The position numbers and the translations under genes are program-made. From Bacteroidota bacterium (lineage in GTDB: Bacteria > Bacteroidota > Bacteroidia > 2-12-FULL-35-15): a DNA stretch of 64,000 bases. The notes under the pieces are model-generated. The model was not told the origin of the DNA, ran no database searches, and saw nothing but the letters and a program-made list of their open reading frames with translations. This document shows, piece by piece, positions 1-11,729 of the stretch (position 1 is its first letter; each line of letters starts with the position of its first letter). The DNA lies in contig CANJYB010000018.1 in the NCBI GenBank assembly GCA_947479085.1, positions 1-64,000 of the forward strand, in the 5' to 3' direction.

Positions 1-24
1 CGCGACACGAAAGAAAAAACATCC

Positions 25-173
25 GATAACATAAGATTTATGAAATAAAAAAAAGGGGGGGCGACCTGCCAGTATGAAGTTTCAAGCATTTAATAACGTT
101 TGTCGCGGGGCGAAAGAGACGAGCTTTTAATCCCCCCTTTTTTTTACTTCATAAATCTTTCAAACGTTATCAG
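25..173 (+). repeat. attC-like 145-bp palindromic repeat, copy 1
   Basis: Imperfect palindrome running from ATAAC (26-30) to GTTAT (166-170). The arms pair over nearly 30 bp (AAGATTTATGAA, then a T/A-rich stretch, then a run of 6 G against 6 C) with one mismatch. The 5' arm has only 2 nt and the 3' arm 6 nt between the ATAAC/GTTAT core and this stem, giving an asymmetric bulge of the kind seen in integron attC sites. An inner GCGAC/GTCGC pair lies in the central part. Three more nearly identical copies follow in the same orientation at 2.8, 6.1 and 8.3 kb. Bases 16-30 would be the end of an earlier cassette mostly outside the window. The assignment to attC is inferred from structure, not from similarity to a known site. 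Confidence 0.8.
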
Positions 174-229
174 TAACCATTGCGAAACTCGAACGTACTT
201 TGTAAAACAACAACTTAATTAAAAGAAAA

Positions 230-898
230 ATGACAGTATATGAAATATTCACTTTAATTCACGTAACTTTTACAATCATTGCATTAGTAACTGGTATTAT
301 TGCAATGATAGCTACTCCCAAAGGAAATAAACTGCATAGAAAATCAGGATTGGTTTATTTCTATTCATTTATTGGAATAGCAATTTTCGGTTTACTTATG
401 GTTTTTATTAAATACAAAGATTTATTTCTTGGGGTTACTATATTTAATACTTACATTATTATTATGGGTTATAGAGCTGTTCAATATAAAAGTACTAAAG
501 CAAATTGGGTAGATTGGACGATGTTGACAATTTTCTTTTGCGGTGGTTTACTCTTTGTTTTCAGTGCTATAAAGATGTATGGTATTTTTTTTCAACCTGA
601 TTATGGTTGGGGAGTAATTCGTATCTTTTATGCATTGTTGGTTGTTTATATTTTCATTGGCGATTTACGGTATTTTAAAAACAAAGCAATTGATAAGAAA
701 GCTTGGTTGTATAACCATATGGAGAAAATGCTTATTACATTTACCTCTCTTATAAGTGGTGTTCTTTTACGCTTTTCTGATTATTTTTTTCCTGAAGATT
801 TTAAATGGACATTCTGGATTACTCCTTACATAGTCTGTCTTCCATTAATTGCATATTGGATTAGTAAATACAAACCCAAGACTACTAAACAAAAATAA
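230..898 (+). CDS. DUF2306-like seven-helix membrane protein
   Basis: The 222-residue product is almost entirely hydrophobic, with about seven membrane helices (roughly 8-28, 44-62, 67-85, 98-115, 128-147, 165-183, 193-212). The first loop carries KLHRKSG (34-40), resembling the HR(K/R)xG loop of DUF2306-type membrane proteins, whose function is unknown. It is the first gene after repeat copy 1, starting about 60 nt behind the GTTAT core. Its stop codon is followed one base later by the start of the phosphatase gene, so the two are probably co-transcribed within one cassette. Base composition is AT-rich like the other cassette genes. The membrane location is clear; the family call is from pattern recognition and is moderate. 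Confidence 0.6.
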   Translation: MTVYEIFTLIHVTFTIIALVTGIIAMIATPKGNKLHRKSGLVYFYSFIGIAIFGLLMVFIKYKDLFLGVTIFNTYIIIMGYRAVQYKSTKANWVDWTMLTIFFCGGLLFVFSAIKMYGIFFQPDYGWGVIRIFYALLVVYIFIGDLRYFKNKAIDKKAWLYNHMEKMLITFTSLISGVLLRFSDYFFPEDFKWTFWITPYIVCLPLIAYWISKYKPKTTKQK

Positions 899-899
899 G

Positions 900-2786
900 A
901 TGAGAGTAACACACTTTATTTTATTGCTTTTATTTCTGAATGTTAAGACTTCAGTGGCTCAACAATATAAGGAAATCCAAAATAAAGCCAACCAACAATA
1001 TCAAGCAAAACAATATGAAGTAGCTGCACAATTGTACGAAAATGCTTTTGAATTAGATGATAGCGAATACAGAACTGAAAATTTATATAATGCAAGTTGC
1101 TCATATGCCCTTTCTGGAAATAAAACTAAAGCTTTTGATTGTCTTGAAGAAGCAATTGATTTTGGATGGCAAAAGATAGAACAAGCTAATAAGGACACAG
1201 ACTTAAATTCTCTAAAGGATGATATAAGATGGCAAACACTGAAAGACAAAATACAAATACAATACGGAAAGAGTTACAAATTTTATTTTTGGGGTATGTA
1301 TTTAGGAATATTGTTCATTCTGTTTTTTTACAATCTTTTTTTATTTTTCTCACTCAAAGATATTTCATTATTATATTATGCTGTATTAATTCTTTTGTAT
1401 TCTCAATTTGAAGTAACACGTACACCTGCGTTTGCTTACTATTCAGAAAACATTTTTATATGGCAAAGATATTTTCCATTACTTGGAAATGCAGGTAACT
1501 TTTTTATTTGTCTTTCAATGGTCTTTCAATTACTTTTTACAAAAAGTTTTTTAAACCTAAAAGAAATAGCACCCCGTATTAATAAAACAATTGTTTTTTT
1601 TATTATCTACTTTATACTCTGCTGTTCGATAATACTAGTAAAAAGTAGTTTCCAAATAAGACCAATAATATATACATCTTCTCTTGTTGCTTTAATTTTT
1701 TCTTTCCTAACAGGTATCTTTTGTTGGTACAAAAAATATAGGTCTGCTCGCTTTTTTGTAATTGCCAACATACTTTACATTATAGGAGTTGTAATAGTGC
1801 TTTTGCACGCTCTTAATATCACAGATATATATTTCAGAATTTCAGTATTTCGCCCAGACAATATTGGTCAAATTGCCTTTTTTAGTTTATTATCTTTTGC
1901 AATTGGGGATAAAATAAATATTCTTAAAAAAGAAAAAATAGAAACACAAGAAAGGGCATTAGAAGTTTTGGAAATAAAAGTAAAAGAAAGAATGGAAGAA
2001 GTTGTAAAACAAAAAGAAATAATTGAAGAAAAAAACAAAGATATAACGGATAGTATTCAATACGCTTTGCGTATTCAAACTGCAATACTTCCTCCAAATA
2101 AAATAGTAAAACAATATTTAGAGAACTCTTTTATACTATACAAACCGAAAGACATTGTTGCAGGAGATTTTTATTGGATGGAAACAGTGAATGATTTAGT
2201 TTTGTTTGCTGCTTGCGATTGTACAGGACACGGAGTGCCAGGCGCAATGGTTTCAGTAGTTTGTCATAATGCACTTAACAGAGCAGTAAGAGAATTTGGT
2301 TTAACACAACCAGCCGCAATACTTGATAAAACAGCAGAAATAGTAATAGAAAATTTTAGTAAAAGCGAAGAAGATATAAAAGACGGAATGGATATTTCGC
2401 TTTGTGCATACAACATCAAAACAAAAAAATTACAATGGTCAGGTGCTAACAATCCCTTATGGTTATTGCAGAATGGAGAACTCATAGAAACCAAAGCAGA
2501 CAAACAACCAATTGGAATGACAGAAGATAGTAAGCCATTTACAAACCATACTTTCAACCTAAATGCAACAGACACAATATATCTTTTCACAGACGGTTTC
2601 GCAGACCAGTTTGGTGGCGACACAGGAGAAAAGAAACTAACAAAAAGACGTTTTAAAGACTTGTTATTATCTGTTCAAACCAAATCATTGCAAGAACAAG
2701 AAAGTACATTAGACAAGTTTATAACAGACTACAGAAAGCAAGTAGAACAAATAGACGACATACTTGTTATGGGCGTGAAAGTATAG
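900..2786 (+). CDS. TPR / 7TM-DISM sensor with SpoIIE-type PP2C phosphatase
   Basis: The start at 900 (MRVTHF) is preferred because it gives a signal peptide ending at VAQQ and sits just behind the previous stop; the frame is open further upstream. Order of the 628 residues: signal peptide (1-21), a TPR-like helical stretch (about 25-80), a block of seven or eight membrane helices resembling 7TM-DISM (about 130-345), a charged coiled coil (345-395) and a SpoIIE/PP2C phosphatase domain (about 400-628) with GDFYWME and CTGHGVPGAM metal-binding-type motifs. In Bacteroidota such proteins sense an external signal and dephosphorylate an anti-sigma-antagonist type partner; the partner is unknown here. 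It closes cassette I, ending about 20 nt before the terminal inverted repeat. Confidence 0.82.
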   Translation: MRVTHFILLLLFLNVKTSVAQQYKEIQNKANQQYQAKQYEVAAQLYENAFELDDSEYRTENLYNASCSYALSGNKTKAFDCLEEAIDFGWQKIEQANKDTDLNSLKDDIRWQTLKDKIQIQYGKSYKFYFWGMYLGILFILFFYNLFLFFSLKDISLLYYAVLILLYSQFEVTRTPAFAYYSENIFIWQRYFPLLGNAGNFFICLSMVFQLLFTKSFLNLKEIAPRINKTIVFFIIYFILCCSIILVKSSFQIRPIIYTSSLVALIFSFLTGIFCWYKKYRSARFFVIANILYIIGVVIVLLHALNITDIYFRISVFRPDNIGQIAFFSLLSFAIGDKINILKKEKIETQERALEVLEIKVKERMEEVVKQKEIIEEKNKDITDSIQYALRIQTAILPPNKIVKQYLENSFILYKPKDIVAGDFYWMETVNDLVLFAACDCTGHGVPGAMVSVVCHNALNRAVREFGLTQPAAILDKTAEIVIENFSKSEEDIKDGMDISLCAYNIKTKKLQWSGANNPLWLLQNGELIETKADKQPIGMTEDSKPFTNHTFNLNATDTIYLFTDGFADQFGGDTGEKKLTKRRFKDLLLSVQTKSLQEQESTLDKFITDYRKQVEQIDDILVMGVKV

Positions 2787-2816
2787 TAAACAAAGGGACA
2801 AAAAAAAATGGCTACT

Positions 2817-2965
2817 GATAACATAAGATTTATGAAATAAAAAAAAGGGGGGGCGACCTGCCAGTATGAAGTTTCAAGCATTTAATAACGTTTGTCGCGG
2901 GGCGAAAGAGACGAGCTTTTAATCCCCCCTTTTTTTTACTTCATAAATCTTTCAACCGTTATCAG
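2817..2965 (+). repeat. attC-like 145-bp palindromic repeat, copy 2
   Basis: Core ATAAC at 2818-2822 and GTTAT at 2958-2962, otherwise almost identical to copy 1. It separates cassette I from cassette II. The 16 nt ending at 2822 (AATGGCTACTGATAAC) are the reverse complement of the 16 nt starting cassette I at 166 (GTTATCAGTAACCATT), except for one position. Left and right flanks of this copy are not direct repeats of each other, which argues against a simple transposon insertion. Confidence 0.8.
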
Positions 2966-2988
2966 CAATTATAAAAAAAACCGTAACC

Positions 2989-5250
2989 ATGACAAACCGA
3001 ATCTTAATTTTTTATTTAGTCTTCAACTTATCAAACATAAGTGGACAAACATTACAAGACCAGTGGATGGAATGTAATAAAACTGGTTGTAAACTTTTAG
3101 ACCCATACTATTCAGACGGAGCAACCATAACTTGGGACGGTGATTGTAAAGACGGAAAAGCAAACGGCTTTGGAAAGGCAATAAAATATCAAAAGGGAGA
3201 GTACGAATCAACATTTGAAGGAAATTATGTAAATGGTATCCGAGAAGGAAATGGTAAATTTAAACACATAACTGGTTCTACTCTTGAATGCCCCTTTATC
3301 AATGGACAAGGAATTGGGCATGGAACATATACTTATGACGATGGGAACAAATATGAAGGGGACATACTAAATTATCGCGCTCATGGTACAGGTATATTCT
3401 ATTATGCCAACGGTTCAAAATTTGAAGGTTTTTTTGTTTCAGATAACCCATATACAGGAAAATTTACAAATTACGATGGTAAAATAAAATATATTCAAGA
3501 AAGGAAACCAGTAGAAAAAATTAAAGAAAACAATTCAAATTACCAACCAAATTGGAATGAAGTTGTGACAGAATATTTTGACGAAAAATGGAAAAGATGT
3601 GAACCTAAAAATGCTTCTTTTTATAGAAGAGTTACTTATGAATCAGAAAATAAACCAAAAGGTAGTGTTAAAGATTATTTTATCACGGGGCAACTGCAAT
3701 CGGAAGTAACGTTTATTTTTCTTGATTATGATGATGAGGGTAAAAATTTCCTTGAAGGCGAAGCAACATGGTATTATAAAAATGGAAAAATACAAGAGAA
3801 AAGGTATTATATGAATAACAAAATAAATGGTAAAAACACTACTTGGTATGAAAGTGGACAAAAGAGAAGTGAATGCAATTATGAAATTGGTAGATGGAAT
3901 GGTTATTATTACCAATGGTATCAATCAGGCAGTTTATATATTAAAGCTTATTATGAAAAAGGAATTTTATTTGATAATAAATATGTGGAATTTGATGAAA
4001 ATGGTTTTGGCAGTATTGTTTATAAAGAAACCTTTCAAAGAAATAAAGACTATTGGCAATACAAGGATGAACATTCGGAAGCATCTATTGATTTTGAAAA
4101 TAACAATGTAATGTTTGATAATAGAGGTATAGGCACAGTTAGTAGAGGCGTTTATATTCCTTTTAACCAAGAAGGAAGTTATTCCATTGAGGAAATAATT
4201 GACCGAAAAGCAATAGAAAAAACTAATGGAGTTGGACTCTCATTTGGTTTCAAAGATTGGGATAATTATTATTCATTTCTTATCTCCGGTAATGGTGAAT
4301 ATAAAATTTATGGCAAATACGAAGGGGTTAATATTATTATTAAGGATTGGACTTATTCTAGTTCTATTAATCCAGACAAGGGTTCACATAGAAATCTTCT
4401 AAAAATATTAAAACTGTCTGACAGTTTTATTTTTTCAATCAATGGTACAGTTGTAGACAAAGAACCTTCAAAAACATTGCGAGGAAATTATTCTGGTCTT
4501 ATGATTGGAGGCAAAGGAAAAGTAATTTTAGAATCGTTAACAATTCACGAATTTATTGAGAACTCTAATTCAAGTACCACAGATGAAAATACAAAAGGTA
4601 GTACTAATGATGGAGGTTGGCTTGGTAACGGTTCTGGATTTTTCATTAATGAAAAAGGTTACATCGTTACTAATTATCATGTAGTAAAAGATGCTTCGGA
4701 TATTCAAGTAGAATTTTTTCAAAAAGGAATACGGAAATCATATCAAGCTAAAGTAATAGTTTCAGATAAGGTAAACGATTTATCAATTATTAAAATCAGC
4801 GACCCTTCCTTTAAACCTTTTCCTAAATTACCTTATTCGTTTTCAACAAACACAAAAGATGTAGGTACTTCTGTATTTACTTTAGGTTATCCTATGGCAT
4901 TAGGCATTATGGGTGAAGAAGTAAAATTTACAGATGGTAAAATTAGTGCGAAGTCAGGTTACAAAGGAGATATAACTGTTTATCAAATTTCTGTTGCTGT
5001 TCAGCCAGGAAATAGCGGAGGACCTCTTTTTGATAACGCAGGAAATATAGTTGGTATTGTTTCATCAGGGTTAAATAAGGAAATTACTGAAAATGTAAAT
5101 TATGCAATAAAATCAAATTATCTAAAAAGTTTAATTGAAAGTATGCCCGAAAAAATATCTCTACCGAATGACTTAACTATATCTAGTAAAATACTTACAG
5201 AGCAAGTAAAAATTATTTCTGATTATATTCCAATAATAAAAATAAAATAA
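2989..5250 (+). CDS. Secreted MORN-repeat protein with HtrA-like serine protease domain
   Basis: The 753-residue product starts with a signal peptide (1-19, cut after ISG). MORN repeats follow (about 78-150; YEGD..., GxGxFYYANGSKFEGFF), then MORN-variant WYYKNG/WYESGQ repeats (about 250-320), a beta-rich middle (about 340-520) and a trypsin-like domain (about 545-725). The triad is readable as His564 (TNYHVV), Asp597 (NDLSII) and Ser676 (GNSGGP), so the protease should be active. No PDZ domain is evident. MORN repeats usually bind lipid or protein surfaces, so recruitment of the protease to a membrane or partner is a reasonable inference. It lies in cassette II, 9 nt before a DUF2971 gene. 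Confidence 0.82.
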   Translation: MTNRILIFYLVFNLSNISGQTLQDQWMECNKTGCKLLDPYYSDGATITWDGDCKDGKANGFGKAIKYQKGEYESTFEGNYVNGIREGNGKFKHITGSTLECPFINGQGIGHGTYTYDDGNKYEGDILNYRAHGTGIFYYANGSKFEGFFVSDNPYTGKFTNYDGKIKYIQERKPVEKIKENNSNYQPNWNEVVTEYFDEKWKRCEPKNASFYRRVTYESENKPKGSVKDYFITGQLQSEVTFIFLDYDDEGKNFLEGEATWYYKNGKIQEKRYYMNNKINGKNTTWYESGQKRSECNYEIGRWNGYYYQWYQSGSLYIKAYYEKGILFDNKYVEFDENGFGSIVYKETFQRNKDYWQYKDEHSEASIDFENNNVMFDNRGIGTVSRGVYIPFNQEGSYSIEEIIDRKAIEKTNGVGLSFGFKDWDNYYSFLISGNGEYKIYGKYEGVNIIIKDWTYSSSINPDKGSHRNLLKILKLSDSFIFSINGTVVDKEPSKTLRGNYSGLMIGGKGKVILESLTIHEFIENSNSSTTDENTKGSTNDGGWLGNGSGFFINEKGYIVTNYHVVKDASDIQVEFFQKGIRKSYQAKVIVSDKVNDLSIIKISDPSFKPFPKLPYSFSTNTKDVGTSVFTLGYPMALGIMGEEVKFTDGKISAKSGYKGDITVYQISVAVQPGNSGGPLFDNAGNIVGIVSSGLNKEITENVNYAIKSNYLKSLIESMPEKISLPNDLTISSKILTEQVKIISDYIPIIKIK

Positions 5251-5259
5251 ATATAAGGA

Positions 5260-6069
5260 ATGGAAATAACATTTGAAAATATAATACTTCCAAAAATAAT
5301 CTATAAATATAGAGATTGGAATATTCCTGAACATCAGCGGATACTAACTCATAATGAGATTTACTTTTCTTCTCCGCGAGGTTTTAAAAATGAGTATGAA
5401 TGTAATTTACCAAAAGATTATGATTCAGTAACTCAAGATATGCTTTACAAATATTTTTATCAGTCATCTTTAAATGAAGGTAAAACAGAAAAAGAAAAAG
5501 ATGAAATAGCCAGTGAAATGGTAAAAAATTCACCATTTCATTTAAAGTCGCATAGGGTGTGTGTTGAACAACTTTTCAAAGAAACTTTATACAGCCGACT
5601 TTCCATTTTTTGTGTTAGCGAACATAATAACAATTTAGAATTATGGAATAAATTTGGTGCGAACCAAACAGGTTTTTGTGTCGGGATTAATCCAATTCAA
5701 ATGTTTAAATCATCAGACACTTTTGGTAGTGGAGGCAAAGTACATTATTATCCCATTAAAACTCCGCCCAAGATTAGACCTTTCTGTTTTTCAGAATGCG
5801 AAAAGATTGAAGATATGCTAAAAGTTATTTATAATTTACCTGATAGTTTAAAAGAAGAAAATGAATATAGACTTACTAAAACAGATATAGAAAAAAGGGC
5901 TTTCACAATCCCATCTAAATGCTTTGAAGAATTAATATTAGGAAGTAAAATTAGCGAAAGAAATAAAATTGAAATTGTTAGCATAGTAAAAACTAATTTA
6001 CCGAATTGCCTTGTATATCAGGCATACTACGACATAAACAAAAAAACATTTACCTTTGAAAAAGAATAA
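5260..6069 (+). CDS. DUF2971 family protein
   Basis: The 269-residue soluble protein has the features of DUF2971: an N-terminal YKYRDW...ILTHNEIYFSSPRGFKNEYE region, then LSIFCVSEHNNNLELW and a GFCVGIN segment in the middle. Members are found scattered in accessory regions, and some lie in defence islands, but the biochemical function is not established. No signal peptide or membrane helix is visible. It is the second gene of cassette II, 9 nt after the protease gene, and its stop codon (6067-6069) lies inside the 15-nt terminal inverted repeat of the cassette. Confidence 0.75.
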   Translation: MEITFENIILPKIIYKYRDWNIPEHQRILTHNEIYFSSPRGFKNEYECNLPKDYDSVTQDMLYKYFYQSSLNEGKTEKEKDEIASEMVKNSPFHLKSHRVCVEQLFKETLYSRLSIFCVSEHNNNLELWNKFGANQTGFCVGINPIQMFKSSDTFGSGGKVHYYPIKTPPKIRPFCFSECEKIEDMLKVIYNLPDSLKEENEYRLTKTDIEKRAFTIPSKCFEELILGSKISERNKIEIVSIVKTNLPNCLVYQAYYDINKKTFTFEKE

Positions 6070-6074
6070 CTGCT

Positions 6075-6220
6075 GATAACATAAGATTTATGAAATAAAA
6101 AAAAGGGGGGGCGACCTGCCAGTATGAAGTTTCAAGCATTTAATAACGTTTGTCGCGGGGCGAAAGAGACGAGCTTTTAATCCCCCCTTTTTTTTACTTC
6201 ATAAATCTTTCAAACGTTAT
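6075..6220 (+). repeat. attC-like 145-bp palindromic repeat, copy 3
   Basis: Core ATAAC at 6076-6080 and GTTAT at 6216-6220. It ends cassette II and begins cassette III. The 15 nt up to 6080 are the inverted complement of 2958-2972 (start of cassette II) except at position 11. The 3' flank (GTTATGCCTCATTGT) differs from the GTTATCAG flank of the other copies. Confidence 0.8.
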
Positions 6221-6320
6221 GCCTCATTGTAAAGACGACAGCGTAAACATAAACCGACAGACAGAAAAAAAAGAGTAATAATTGCAAAACGAAAATAATA
6301 ACTAACAATCAAAGACAAAA

Positions 6321-6800
6321 ATGAAACACAAAAAAGTAAAATTGAGTGTTTTGTTGTTAGGCCTCGGGCTAACAACACAAGCACAACAAGCAACCACCGC
6401 CACGGGCGGTAATGCTTCGGGTAGCGGAGGCACCGTTGCTTATTCGGTAGGACAAATTGTTTATACCACTAACACAGGAACCATAGGTTCGGTAGCACAA
6501 GGCGTGCAGCAACCCTACGAAATTTCTATTGTGCAGGGTATAGAAGACAATTCTATTAAATTGGAATTAACCGCTTACCCCAACCCAACTGCCAATTTTT
6601 TAACTCTTAATGTAGGCAAAGCTGAACTTTCAACTTTGAATTTTCAACTTTACGACATTAGCGGAAAATTAATTGAAAGCCGAAAAATAATAAGCAGTAG
6701 CGAAACCATTGCAATGGAAAACTTACCTACTGCCACCTATTTTTTAAAAGTAACCAACAATAACAACGAAGTAAAAACATTTAAAATCATTAAAAACTAA
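6321..6800 (+). CDS. Small secreted protein with T9SS C-terminal sorting domain
   Basis: The 159-residue protein has a signal peptide (1-21, LGLTTQAQQ), a short Gly/Thr/Ser-rich mature part (SGSGGTVAYSVGQI) and a type A T9SS sorting domain (about 80-159; YPNPTANFLTL, YDISGKLI, TYFLKVTNNN). It would be exported by the Sec pathway, then secreted or surface-attached by the type IX system. It sits 4 nt before the variable-protein gene and so probably belongs to the same transcript. The mature part is too short to suggest an enzyme; a surface anchor or partner for the variable protein is possible but inferred only from position. Confidence 0.75.
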   Translation: MKHKKVKLSVLLLGLGLTTQAQQATTATGGNASGSGGTVAYSVGQIVYTTNTGTIGSVAQGVQQPYEISIVQGIEDNSIKLELTAYPNPTANFLTLNVGKAELSTLNFQLYDISGKLIESRKIISSSETIAMENLPTATYFLKVTNNNNEVKTFKIIKN

Positions 6801-6804
6801 AATT

Positions 6805-7671
6805 ATGAAAACAAAAATTTATTCAATCGTAGTAGGGCTTTTATTAACGGCAAGTGTATTTGCACAAGCCCCACAAAAAATGAGTTACCAAGCTGTAATT
6901 CGCAACAGTAGTAGTGTGCTAATAACATCAACTCCCGTTGGTATGAAAATCAGTGTTTTACAAGGCTCATCAACTGGAACTCCTGTATATGTAGAAACCC
7001 AAACACCAAGCACCAACACCAATGGTTTAGTAAGTTTAGAAATTGGAACAGGAACTCCTGTTACAGGCACATTTGCTGGTATTAATTGGGCAACTGGTCC
7101 TTATTTTATTAAAACCGAAACCGACCCAACAGGCGGCACCGCTTACACCATTTCTGGTACAAACGAATTAATGAGTGTGCCGTATGCTTTGTTTAGTGCA
7201 AACGCAGGTGTTGGTGGCTTTACACACTACCTTGGCGAAGCCTTTAATGGCGGAATAATTTATTACCTATACAAAGGCAGCGATGGTTTAGAACACGGGC
7301 TTATAGTAGCACTTACCGAAAGCACAGCTGCTTGGCAAACATCACCTACATCAGTATTCGCAGACCGTAGTTGGGACGGTGCTTACAATACAGCATTAAT
7401 GACAGGTAGCCCAGCGGCTACATACATTGCAGGATTAGGTGCTGGTTGGTATTTACCAAGTATTGATGAGCTTGGCAAATTGTATTACAACCGTTTTGAA
7501 ACAAACAAGGCCCTTTATACAGGCGGCAACACGTTACTTTCAAATACAGCTTATTGGAGCAGTACCGAGTATTACGCCACCTTTGCGTGCACCTTCCTCT
7601 TCGACCTTGGTTCCGCCTTCGACAGTGATAAGACAAGTACAACCATCGTGCGTGGAGTAAGGGCTTTTTAA
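6805..7671 (+). CDS. Secreted variable protein of a diversity-generating retroelement (lectin-fold)
   Basis: The 288-residue product has a signal peptide (1-20), an N-terminal domain (about 22-135; KMSYQAVIRNSSS, VPYALFSANAG) common in Bacteroidota surface proteins, and a C-terminal domain with GWYLPSIDELGKLYYNRF and the ending AYWSSTEYYA...VRGVRAF. That ending is characteristic of DUF1566/FGE-sulfatase-type C-type lectin folds that serve as targets of diversity-generating retroelements. In relatives the final ~40 residues are encoded by AAC-rich codons when templated; here these positions read Y, F, C, F, L, D, S, which is what adenine mutagenesis would give. An Avd-like gene follows. The family assignment is strong; current diversification is unlikely without a reverse transcriptase nearby. 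Confidence 0.82.
   Translation: MKTKIYSIVVGLLLTASVFAQAPQKMSYQAVIRNSSSVLITSTPVGMKISVLQGSSTGTPVYVETQTPSTNTNGLVSLEIGTGTPVTGTFAGINWATGPYFIKTETDPTGGTAYTISGTNELMSVPYALFSANAGVGGFTHYLGEAFNGGIIYYLYKGSDGLEHGLIVALTESTAAWQTSPTSVFADRSWDGAYNTALMTGSPAATYIAGLGAGWYLPSIDELGKLYYNRFETNKALYTGGNTLLSNTAYWSSTEYYATFACTFLFDLGSAFDSDKTSTTIVRGVRAF
7552..7671 (+). other. Probable variable repeat (VR) at the 3' end of the lectin-fold gene
   Basis: The last ~120 nt of the gene, encoding residues 250-288, begin with 21 nt that recur exactly at 8219-8239 downstream. Beyond this identity the first two differences (7573 and 7578) fall where the downstream copy has adenine (A to T, A to C). The stretch ends in the VRGVRAF codons, where the GC-richer initiation sequence of such repeats normally lies. 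The boundary is inferred from the family pattern because only the first ~29 nt have a surviving template to compare with. Confidence 0.6.
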
Positions 7672-7734
7672 CAATTTATCTATTTAACAATTTAATAATT
7701 ACCGCGAAGCGGTCGATTTTATTTTTTGAGAATT

Positions 7735-8079
7735 ATGGCTTTGTATTACGATTTACCAGTTTTTAAAGAAGTGTATAAATTAATACTCGTTTTGTTTGAG
7801 GTTACAAAAGACTTCCCCAAAGAGTATAAATACACGCTAGGGCACGATATAAAGCGTGATGGTATAAACTTGGTACGTAGTATTTACAGAGCCAATAAAG
7901 CAAAAAATAAGGTAGAATATTTAGAAGCGTTTTTAGATGATTTTGAATTGATAAAATTAGAAATACGCCTATGCGTAGATATGAAAATACTTTCCATAAA
8001 AAAGCAAGCCGAAATAAGTTTACTAATGGATAGCATAGGCAAACAGATTACAGGTTGGCGTAATGCCAACCTTGTATAA
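7735..8079 (+). CDS. Avd-like four-helix bundle protein
   Basis: The frame is open from 7726, but the ATG at 7735 (MALYYDLPVF) gives the usual start; the product is 114 residues, typical for Avd. It is helical and basic, with LPVFKEVYKLILVL, FPKEYKYTLGHDIKRD and a C-terminal ITGWRNAN, as in Avd and the related 23S rRNA intervening-sequence four-helix proteins. Avd binds the reverse transcriptase and template RNA of diversity-generating retroelements. The position directly after the variable protein and before a template-like repeat supports Avd over the rRNA-insertion relative. The preceding 60 nt contain an AT-rich stretch and a short GCGAAGCGGTCG hairpin. Confidence 0.75.
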   Translation: MALYYDLPVFKEVYKLILVLFEVTKDFPKEYKYTLGHDIKRDGINLVRSIYRANKAKNKVEYLEAFLDDFELIKLEIRLCVDMKILSIKKQAEISLLMDSIGKQITGWRNANLV

Positions 8080-8218
8080 TGCCAGAACTGTTGCCGTTAC
8101 GGTGGCAATGGGCGAGCAGGTTTTGTTTGAAAAAGGGCATAAGGACAATACATTTTTTGTGTTGTAGAAATGATGGAATTGAAAAGCAAAACTATCAATA
8201 CACTTATGCGTAGCTAAC

Positions 8219-8247
8219 TATTGGAGCAGTACCGAGTATAACGCAAC
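8219..8247 (+). other. Truncated template repeat (TR) remnant
   Basis: Bases 8219-8239 are identical to 7552-7572 in the variable gene. The next eight match except at two adenines of this copy, which are T and C in the variable copy. Read in frame it is YWSSTEYNAT, the template-type sequence with AAC. Similarity stops at about 8247, where the terminal inverted repeat and attC-like copy 4 begin, so most of a normal ~100-nt template and its initiation site are missing. The last few matching bases overlap the cassette end (8243-8257) and may be chance. Upstream, 8108-8167 is a 19-codon open frame of no evident meaning. Confidence 0.5.
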
Positions 8248-8252
8248 TGCAA

Positions 8253-8396
8253 CTAACATAAGATTTATGAAATAAAAAAAAGGGGGGGCGACCTGCCAGT
8301 ATGAAGTTTCAAGCATTTAATTACGCTTGTCACGGGGCGAAAGAGACGAGCTTTTAATCCCCCTTTTTTTTACTTCATAAATCTTTCAAACGTTAT
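8253..8396 (+). repeat. attC-like palindromic repeat, copy 4 (most diverged)
   Basis: Begins with CTAAC instead of ATAAC (8253-8257) and ends with GTTAT (8392-8396). It carries several substitutions relative to copies 1-3 (TTACGCTTGTCACGGGG in the centre, one C fewer in the C run). The sequence before it (GCAACTGCAACTAAC, 8243-8257) is NOT complementary to the start of cassette III. The sequence after it (GTTATCAGCCATTTT) is complementary to the end of cassette IV. Confidence 0.75.
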
Positions 8397-8440
8397 CAGC
8401 CATTTTTAGAACCGAACGTAACCGAACGAAACCGAACGAA

Positions 8441-9286
8441 ATGAATACAAAAATAAAAAAGACACTTGCTAAAGAGATAATTTATTTTTTCTCTGTTGTT
8501 ACTTTATTGCTTTTAATTTGGGCAGGAATTGAAATAAGAAATTCCTATTTGAGGAATAAATCGAATAATCTTTCTAAAGAGATTTCTGATTTGAATATTC
8601 ATATTGACTCAATTGAAAAAGCACGTCCATTCGTTGCTCCATTATCAGATATTGAAGGTAGAATAAGAGATTTACCATTAAAGAATTTCAAACCACCAGC
8701 AGATGCGGTAGAGGTAAAAATTACGATACAGCAAACCTTATTTGACTTTAATGCAACGATTAAAGCAAACCCAAACTTAACAGAAAAAGAGTTGTTGTTT
8801 AGATTTCCAGAATTTAATAATGATAAAAGGAAACTTCGCGCTGCCTTTGACTATTCAGCTACATTAAATTCGGGAAAATATAAAAATATTGGGGAGTTTA
8901 ATTATAAGTTTCCAGAGTTTTTTGGTGTTAGCAACGATAGTTTAGAATTGAAAAAATCAGATATGGAAAGATTAGATAGTATTGAAATAAAAATGCTCAA
9001 TAACAATGAAACTGATGCAACTATAAAATTTGTACAAAATGATTTCCTCCAAAAATATGGAATAAAAAAGATACGTATTCAAAACAAAACATTGGAAGAA
9101 CTTCAAAAATCAAAAACAGAACTAAACCAGAATCTTAAGGAAACAGAAACGAAACTGTTTTGTAAAGAAGATACACAAGAGTATGTTTTTTGGCTTGCTA
9201 TTATTTTCTTTAGTTTGCTATATCCTTTTAGATTTATTTACTTTCTACTTAAATGGGCTTTTAAAACAGTTAAACAAAAAGAATAA
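8441..9286 (+). CDS. Membrane-anchored coiled-coil protein of unknown function
   Basis: The family of this 281-residue protein is not recognised. It has a membrane helix near the N-terminus (about 13-29), a long charged extramembrane part with coiled-coil segments (about 35-60 and 205-235), two similar FPEF-containing segments (LLFRFPEFNNDKRKLRAA and YKFPEFFGVSND), and a C-terminal hydrophobic pair (about 247-272). The start follows three tandem copies of an ACCGAACG-type octamer (about 8410-8437), an unusual leader directly before the ATG. It is the first gene of cassette IV, followed 6 nt later by the next gene, so the two proteins probably act together at the inner membrane. Confidence 0.7.
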   Translation: MNTKIKKTLAKEIIYFFSVVTLLLLIWAGIEIRNSYLRNKSNNLSKEISDLNIHIDSIEKARPFVAPLSDIEGRIRDLPLKNFKPPADAVEVKITIQQTLFDFNATIKANPNLTEKELLFRFPEFNNDKRKLRAAFDYSATLNSGKYKNIGEFNYKFPEFFGVSNDSLELKKSDMERLDSIEIKMLNNNETDATIKFVQNDFLQKYGIKKIRIQNKTLEELQKSKTELNQNLKETETKLFCKEDTQEYVFWLAIIFFSLLYPFRFIYFLLKWAFKTVKQKE

Positions 9287-9292
9287 TTAGTT

Positions 9293-9985
9293 ATGACGAA
9301 TATAATTTTACTAAATTGGTTTTCTACCATTATTTCTTTCCTCAAAGATATTAGTGTATTAGTAGCGTCAGGAGTTGGATTATACGGAATCAATTCTTGG
9401 AGGCGACAAATAAAATGGAAAAAGAAACACGATTTAGCCGAAGAAACCCTGATTGCATTTTATAACGCTCAGGAAAGTTTTAATATTATTCGTCACCCAA
9501 TTTCATTTGGCAATGAAGGGAGTTCCAGACTGAAAAATCAAAATGAAACCACAGAAGAGAGTATGTTATTAAATGAAAGAAATATAGTAACCGAACGATA
9601 TGAAACATATAAAGAACCGTTTCTTAAACTAAAAGTATTAAAGCAAAGGTTTAAAACACTTTTCAATAAAGAAAGTTTAGAACCCTTTGATGATTTTAAT
9701 AGTATCCTCAATAAAATTCTACTTAGTAATTCATTGTATTACGACCGTAAAAGGGATAAAAAACTAAATGATTACAATGAGAGCACGCTTGCAACAATTA
9801 ATGGACATATGAGTGAATGTGAAAGTGTTTTCAGAGCTGTTTGGGTTTCATCAACAGAAGACGAAGGAAAGGACGACATAAAGAACAAAATAAATAAATC
9901 CGTTGAACAAATGGAAACCTGTTTGCAAAAGTACTTACAGGAGCAAGACACGCTGTACGAAAAGATAAAACGGCTGATAACATAG
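9293..9985 (+). CDS. Single-pass membrane protein with cytosolic helical domain, unknown function
   Basis: The 230-residue protein has one N-terminal membrane helix (about 6-32) followed by WRRQIKWKKKHDLAEETL and a long helical, charged domain. N-terminal membrane helix plus basic stop-transfer plus a long helical tail is seen in several uncharacterised accessory proteins; no function can be assigned. It ends in RLIT, with the TAG stop formed inside the truncated attC-like core (9972-9984), so the cassette end supplies the stop codon. It is paired with the preceding membrane protein, 6 nt apart. Confidence 0.7.
   Translation: MTNIILLNWFSTIISFLKDISVLVASGVGLYGINSWRRQIKWKKKHDLAEETLIAFYNAQESFNIIRHPISFGNEGSSRLKNQNETTEESMLLNERNIVTERYETYKEPFLKLKVLKQRFKTLFNKESLEPFDDFNSILNKILLSNSLYYDRKRDKKLNDYNESTLATINGHMSECESVFRAVWVSSTEDEGKDDIKNKINKSVEQMETCLQKYLQEQDTLYEKIKRLIT
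9972..9984 (+). repeat. 5' end of a fifth, truncated attC-like repeat
   Basis: GGCTGATAACATA repeats the first bases of copies 2 and 3 and then diverges; the remaining ~130 nt of the palindrome are absent. The 15 nt ending at 9981 (AAAACGGCTGATAAC) are the inverted complement of the start of cassette IV (8392-8406) except at position 11. This marks the cassette end and the decayed edge of the array. Confidence 0.65.
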
Positions 9986-10334
9986 GCCGTATGTTTGTAA
10001 AAAAATAATTCCAGTAAAAAGTTATTTGTATAAATTTAATTACAAATAATTTAAAACATGGAACAAATACAAACACAAAGCTTAGACAAGCTAAACAACC
10101 AAAAAGAAAGACAAAAAGTAAGTTATGAAAATCCCGCTGGCGCAGGCGTGTTTCGCCTGTGACAAATTATTCGGTGGCGTCCCGCCACCTGAAAAAATCC
10201 CTTCAGTTAACTTTCAACAAACACCAATCAAACATACCTATTTAAATAAACTTTCATTATTTACTATCTGGTGGTTTAATAAAAACTTCACCCAAACCTG
10301 TATCTTTTTTGAATTGCTGCGTTATGTATAGTAT
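9986..10334 (+). other. Intergenic junction between cassette array and chromosome, with two-hairpin repeat
   Basis: AT-rich DNA followed by a 34-codon open frame (10058-10162, MEQIQTQSLDKLN...) that runs into a repeat and is probably a remnant. The repeat has two hairpins, CAGGCG/CGCCTG (10143-10159) and GGTGGCG/CGCCACC (10173-10189), separated by about 13 nt. The same two-hairpin layout recurs at 19.83 kb and, inverted, at 19.92 kb. No other gene seen. Confidence 0.5.
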
Positions 10335-11631: not shown

Positions 11632-11729
11632 CTGATAATAATACCTACCTGCAAATCCACAACAATGAACCTAAACGCATTGTGCATTTTATTATATTTG
11701 CCACTTATTAATAACGTAAAAAATAAAAG

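Follow-up and report, generated by a model that had tools for sequence, protein, structure and literature searches.

Why should the two ends of a gene cassette match each other over 15 nucleotides, differ from those of the neighbouring cassettes, and be mismatched always at the same place? The question is raised by the beginning of the window, that is, the whole stretch of 64,000 nucleotides that was analysed, which is contig C18 from the contig's first base in a Bacteroidota genome of 4.28 Mb and 50 contigs. Contigs C48 and C50 (both reversed) connect to the window start via exact 149-bp overlaps. The cassettes, their arms and the attC bodies between them are arranged as follows:

16..30, plus strand: 15-nt arm on the R'' side that ends the upstream cassette, which starts outside the window; its mate, the start arm GTTATCGGATATTTT, is on C50 1388-1402, minus strand
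31..165, plus strand: 135-nt type-A attC body belonging to the upstream cassette
166..180, plus strand: start arm of cassette I, with A at 176 as the odd base
166..2822, plus strand: cassette I, with ORFs 230-898 and one ending at 2786
2808..2822, plus strand: end arm of cassette I, GTTATCAGTAGCCAT when reverse-complemented, with C at 2812 as the odd base (reverse complement G)
2823..2957, plus strand: type-A attC body between cassettes I and II
2958..2972, plus strand: start arm of cassette II, with A at 2968 as the odd base
2958..6080, plus strand: cassette II, with ORFs 2989-5250 and 5260-6069
6066..6080, plus strand: end arm of cassette II, with C at 6070 as the odd base
6081..6215, plus strand: type-A attC body between cassettes II and III
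6216..6230, plus strand: start arm of cassette III; its mate end GTTATGCCTTCGTTGT is on contig C22 instead
6216..8257, plus strand: cassette III, probably chimeric, with ORFs 6321-6800, 6805-7671 and 7726-8079; start and end arms unmatched
8243..8257, plus strand: end arm of cassette III (GTTAGTTGCAGTTGC); its mate start GTTAGTTGCAATTGT is in the homologous cassette C42:14724-17214
8258..8391, plus strand: type-A attC body between cassettes III and IV
8392..8406, plus strand: start arm of cassette IV, with A at 8402 as the odd base
8392..9981, plus strand: cassette IV, the last of the array, with ORFs 8441-9286 and 9293-9985; no complete attC follows
9967..9981, plus strand: end arm of cassette IV (GTTATCAGCCGTTTT), with C at 9971 as the odd base

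Pairing of the cassette ends

The arm sequences and coordinates given in the initial annotation proved correct when the window was read again. The start arms are GTTATCAGTAACCATT (166), GTTATCAGCAATTAT (2958), GTTATGCCTCATTGT (6216) and GTTATCAGCCATTTT (8392), and the reverse-complemented end arms are GTTATCGGATGTTTT (30), GTTATCAGTAGCCATT (2822), GTTATCAGCAGTTAT (6080), GTTAGTTGCAGTTGC (8257) and GTTATCAGCCGTTTT (9981). As had been noted there, A occupies position 11 in 4/4 starts, and G does so in 5/5 reverse-complemented ends. The further claim, that each cassette matches its own partner, stands for three of the four window cassettes and fails for cassette III (6216-8257), with which the strict inverted-repeat reading for every cassette was dropped. 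The start predicted for the cassette upstream of the window, GTTATCGGATA, was found: the cassette that ends at position 30 is on C50, because the exact 149-bp overlap joins C50 (reverse) to the window start, and it begins there with GTTATCGGATATTTT. Full or partial copies of the type-A repeat are also present on C40, C42, C44-C47, C50, C22, C7 and C1, and the repeat occurs in 9/35 congeners; an Rfam scan of the window gave no match. At 9982-10025, 3' of the last cassette, a complete attC is absent and the end of the array appears decayed. Two IMG/VR contigs filed as viral (L119 and L120) were also seen to have the type-A right arm CATAAATCTTTCAAACGTTA.

Beyond the window, it had been proposed that starts and ends co-vary while position 11 stays A/G, and this held across 25 independently defined cassettes, a non-redundant set with a type-A attC on both sides that was picked without use of the arms. 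The identity between a start and its own reverse-complemented end was 1.0 at positions 1-4, 0.96, 0.88, 0.96, 0.96, 0.88 and 0.76 at positions 5-10, 0.00 at position 11 (A/G in all 25), and 1.0, 1.0, 1.0 and 0.92 at positions 12-15; past the arm edge, at positions 16-20, it was 0.04-0.20. The own-partner mean score was 13.22/14, against 9.20 for shuffled partners (never above 10.30 in 2000 rounds) and 9.05 when each end n was compared with start n+1, its opposite in the array, and chance is therefore excluded as the source of own-partner matching. A search of the genus loci that was blind to position 11 returned 136 near-matching arm pairs, 69 with A/G and 62 with the mirror G/A, and its reversed-sequence control showed no such bias (4/51). 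Around the odd position the end arms take three forms, a simple one (A10/G11), one with T10/G11 and, in a minority of ends, one with an extra base next to position 11. One apparent half-matched cassette, C40 2968-5880, was discarded, as an inner second start at 4556 matches the end fully.

The arms of cassette III point to an exchange. Its end arm matches the start of the homologous C42 cassette, its start arm has its partner at the end of a C22 cassette, and over 194 bp its 3' part and the equivalent region of the C22 cassette share 91% identity; the mismatch probably arose when similar cassettes recombined. Homologous cassettes at larger distances are instructive as well. At 37-75% amino acid identity the arms differ, yet start and end match once more, with changes at the same positions: the cassette that ends at window position 30 and its homologue from another family (74.6% amino acid identity) differ at 6, 7, 9, 10, 12, 13 and 14 in the start and at 6, 7, 9, 12, 13 and 14 in the end, and two other homologous cassettes (L016 and L081) differ at 5, 6, 9, 12 and 13 on both sides. 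A cassette shared by two families at 94% amino acid identity has identical arms. Since diverged homologues carry different arms that match once more at the same positions, the comparison favours a pairing that is maintained, and joint replacement of both arms could produce the same pattern.

The neighbouring recombinase and its attI-like site

On contig C42 of the same genome a cassette start, GTTAGCGGCAATGAT, stands at C42:10075, downstream of a tyrosine recombinase gene (8839-9975); this first cassette is closed at 11691 by the end GTTAGCGGCAGTGATT, and the array tiles onward. On C44 a partial recombinase precedes a cassette start at position 700. The 209 nt after the recombinase are identical between this locus (G000-C44) and that of G032 up to GTTAT and divergent beyond, a pattern that marks a site-specific junction. 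Among 48 recombinase loci with enough flank, 31 have the start motif 75-125 nt after the recombinase stop codon, against 5.0 expected, and 17 are without it in that interval. The motif is preceded by an attI-like consensus, TATAAACAA, in many families. It was also observed that the 30 nt upstream of the attI-like junctions (27 distinct sequences) contain a self-complementary stem whose letters vary by species, with a paired fraction of 0.61 vs 0.47 in shuffled sequences (maximum 0.55 in 2000).

Relatives of the recombinase, counted at E <= 1e-95 and not all necessarily of integron type, are present in 175/395 sampled Bacteroidia genomes and 98/196 genera. Extension of 20 loci that have the start motif after the recombinase and lie outside the genus, in other Bacteroidia families, gave 32 cassettes that could be chained from attI or from one another, and since 31/32 of them are A/G, the A11/G11 rule is by no means confined to the type-A repeat. 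The same layout of recombinase, attI-like site and cassettes, with the same arms, recurs on a Chryseobacterium plasmid. Arrays in which no cognate enzyme was detected exist too, namely in seven congeners (G033, G025, G021, G012, G020, G026 and G002) that have type-A attCs and only distant Xer-like recombinases, possibly as a result of assembly gaps. Among the other loci, L095, L098 and L126 (13132-13911) contain short recombinases of the same superfamily followed by or paired with IS91-type transposase genes. On the minus strand of C40 (22300), a cassette-like start, GTTAGCCGTAATTTT, follows ATATATATAT with no recombinase found adjoining, and may be a secondary-site insertion.

The C42 protein scores 180.5 bits against the IntI model TIGR02249 (cut-off 265), 194.1 bits against the NCBIfam XerA model NF040815 (cut-off 220), and 165.7 and 169.4 bits against the curated XerC and XerD models, both under their cut-offs, and nothing in the window's genome exceeds the cut-off of the curated IntI model. 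The best PDB match is XerA (5hxy). The IntI-specific insertion (~40 aa) is missing: in the Bacteroidota recombinases that could be measured, some alignment rows being unreliable with the first motif matched elsewhere, KGxKDR and HxLRH are 58-62 residues apart, vs 100-101 in IntI1 and Vibrio IntIA. The C-terminal SPLDKL/SPFDxL tail is IntI-like and is missing from the Xer-like proteins of the genome. A phylogenetic tree of the recombinases had long branches and gave no placement relative to IntI and Xer.

Proposed recombination and the role of position 11

The arms are probably the long R''/R' stem of single-strand attC sites in an integron-like system of the Bacteroidota. The XerA-like recombinase would insert circular cassettes between the G and the TTA of GTTA, beside an attI-like site (TATAAACAA directly before GTTA) located ~100 nt past the end of its own gene. 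Within the circle, the attC body would lie between the start and end arms, which would fold into a stem of ~15 bp, about a full recombinase half-site, made of ~9-10 bp, a fixed distortion at 10-11 and a further 4 bp; the distortion, which in some ends includes an extra base, would be a G.T wobble on the bottom strand and an A.C mismatch on the top strand. The letters of the arms would be free but obliged to pair, and each cassette would therefore have its own pair. In the array the end arm stands opposite the start arm of the next cassette and the stem would be broken, so that insertion would be easier than excision. The fixed A/G would help to hold polarity, the bottom strand folding better. 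Directly seen in the sequences and calculations are the arms with their co-variation and fixed A/G, the closeness of recombinase and attI-like site, the insertion boundary and the folding energies; recombination through the folded bottom strand, the bias toward insertion and the part played by position 11 are inferred from them. That these are integron-type cassettes, whose private pairing is possible only in an excised circle or a folded single strand, had been suggested at the outset and is supported.

Folding was carried out with DNA parameters, the circle-form attC consisting of the end arm, the attC body and the cassette's own start arm. In 53/55 attCs the bottom strand gave the more stable circle form, by a mean of 3.86 kcal/mol. 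Compared with the array form, the circle form was the more stable in 55/55, by a mean of 8.25 kcal/mol; the 55 sites are not independent, as 20 share one body length and family. The R stem alone favoured the bottom strand in 52/55 (mean 0.81). When position 11 was restored to a match the bottom-strand bias was kept in 50/55 (mean 3.07 kcal/mol), the repair taking away only ~0.8 of 3.9 kcal/mol. Position 11 thus reinforces the bias given by the rest of the site, without being its main source. The initial annotation had pictured the odd base as a fixed unpaired base that could act like an extrahelical one; this does not hold for both strands, position 11 being A.C in the top strand and a G.T wobble in the bottom strand. 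A role for position 11 in strand choice fits the folding bias but is unproven, because most of that bias remains without it.

It is quite conceivable, if somewhat less than probable, that the pairing serves recombination while the A/G at position 11 is a sequence-specific contact of the recombinase, or a kink for protein bending, rather than a strand selector. The invariance of A11 in starts and G11 in ends among variable neighbours is in line with this proposal, as are the small shift in strand bias upon repair and the prevalence of T at position 12 (30/37). The polarity of the mismatch, A.C on top and G.T on the bottom, nevertheless agrees with the whole-site bias in 53/55, which a pure contact would not need. 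As for the matching itself, the arms could be relics of cassette birth, for example through copying of one end, with no present role. They do travel with the cassette, as its near-identical copies in two families indicate, and both could have been replaced jointly by a gene's move into another cassette; yet such relics should decay, whereas matching is 0.92-1.0 at positions 12-15, and homologues at 37-75% amino acid identity have different arms that match anew, which makes this origin improbable.

The arrays might also be moved in trans by the housekeeping XerC/XerD or by a classical IntI, the neighbouring recombinase being a bystander. The seven congeners that have attC copies and no close recombinase speak for such an arrangement, but the first cassette lies 75-125 nt after the recombinase in 31/48 loci, across many families and behind a conserved attI-like sequence, and the window's genome has no match over the IntI cut-off, so the suggestion is rather unlikely, slightly more so than that of relics. 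That each cassette is an ordinary transposon, which the 15-nt inverted repeats at both ends might suggest, is scarcely credible and was rejected, as the repeats are private to each cassette and not family-wide, the cassettes tile head to tail with attC hairpins in between, and no transposase gene was seen per cassette.

Resistance cassettes and comparison with known integrons

The blaVEB-1 cassette of class 1 integrons starts with GTTAGCGGTAATTTA and has the reverse-complemented end GTTAGCGGTAGTTTT, which is the full A11/G11 signature, and its attC body of 119 nt has the length usual for Bacteroidia bodies, mostly 116-119 nt. In public records, cassettes with this start arm are located as follows:

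L131 and L132, around 1505-2440; L127, 5142-6763: blaVEB-1/blaVEB-3 cassettes

A Klebsiella plasmid has blaVEB-3, with the same start as blaVEB-1, directly behind a recombinase relative that is 51% identical to the Chryseobacterium protein. On Acinetobacter plasmids a relative precedes a cassette-like tet(X3) unit (L124 6799-8008, L125 3804-5013), whose boundaries have a partial signature, matching at 8-10 and 12-15, with A/G at 11 and a mismatch at 5-7. BLAST of the blaVEB attC against the Bacteroidota loci in the analysis gave no significant DNA match, and the argument for its origin therefore rests on the arms, the body length and the neighbouring recombinase. A Salmonella plasmid (L128 5019-5600) was seen to have a recombinase fragment (70% identity to the Chryseobacterium one) beside mphG/mef(C), with the attI-like CATATAAGTAA joined to GTTAGCTGCAAGGCT.

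Taken together, it seems somewhat favoured that a separate integron lineage is widespread in the Bacteroidia, with recombinases lacking the IntI domain, a private 15-bp stem and an invariant G.T/A.C at position 11, and that it has already been the source of blaVEB, and probably of tet(X3), for Gram-negative pathogens, including the capture of blaVEB by class 1 integrons. The A11/G11 arms are a fingerprint, readable from sequence only, of a gene-capture system beside recombinases in many Bacteroidia families, and offer a route to trace resistance cassettes back to the Bacteroidota, as in blaVEB-1 with its signature and 119-nt body and in blaVEB-3 beside a recombinase relative. A survey with IntegronFinder 2.0 found a complete integron in the Bacteroidetes proper only for Salinibacter ruber (PMC9024848), and the Bacteroidota system therefore seems to have been overlooked. 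No earlier description of it was found in the open-access literature, and an earlier account may exist elsewhere.

For comparison with classical integrons, the Vibrio sp. HDW18 superintegron (41 cassettes, on a replicon from a plasmid collection) was used; a search for VCRs in viral contigs found none. Its own-partner identity at positions 5-13 is 0.95, 0.95, 0.93, 0.88, 0.80, 0.61, 0.54, 0.44 and 0.29, near the shuffled values from position 13 on, and its 41 cassettes show no A/G pair at position 11. The initial assumption that only a ~7-nt R box matches in classical integrons was too low, most classical cassettes having 9-11 paired nt (PMC2727003) and the 41 Vibrio cassettes ~10-12 nt. Cassette-private pairing is therefore general. 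Unusual, and particular to the Bacteroidota system, are its sharp 15-nt length, a pairing that carries on past the odd position, and the constant A/G there. The attC sites differ too: in the window family the L stem is uninterrupted and has no extrahelical base, whereas classical attCs have a conserved extrahelical G in L''. The L stem of type-A attC (e.g. window 43-51 vs the right arm) was seen to have a further A/G position, GAAATAAAA vs GAAGTAAAA, that is A.C on the top strand and G.T on the bottom, as at position 11.

The Bacteroidota recombinase differs from XerA, XerC and XerD by an N-terminal extension, an IntI-like C-terminal tail, and a downstream attI with cassettes. The pdif (Xer) modules of Acinetobacter plasmids are likewise small gene modules of Xer-type recombination; their borders are double-stranded dif-like sites instead of arms private to each cassette and attC hairpins.

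With classical integrons the Bacteroidota arrays have in common the head-to-tail cassettes with genes in one orientation, the insertion between G and TTA, the cassette-specific R''/R' pairing and an attI beside the recombinase, whose SPLDxL/SPFDxL tail is also that of classical IntI. The functional layout was found, with attI next to the recombinase and then the cassette array, and between the cassettes lie palindromic attC sites with R''/R' and L''/L' arms and GTT/AAC termini. The attI follows the 3' end of the recombinase gene and the cassettes run in the same direction, whereas the Vibrio integrase is divergent. The additional domain around patch III is regarded as a defining feature of IntI (Messier and Roy, cited in PMC9668308); IntI1 and Vibrio IntIA have it and the Bacteroidota recombinase does not, which puts in question the need for this domain in cassette recombination. 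Judged by its sequences, the system resembles an integron in its anatomy and stands outside the IntI family by the defining domain.
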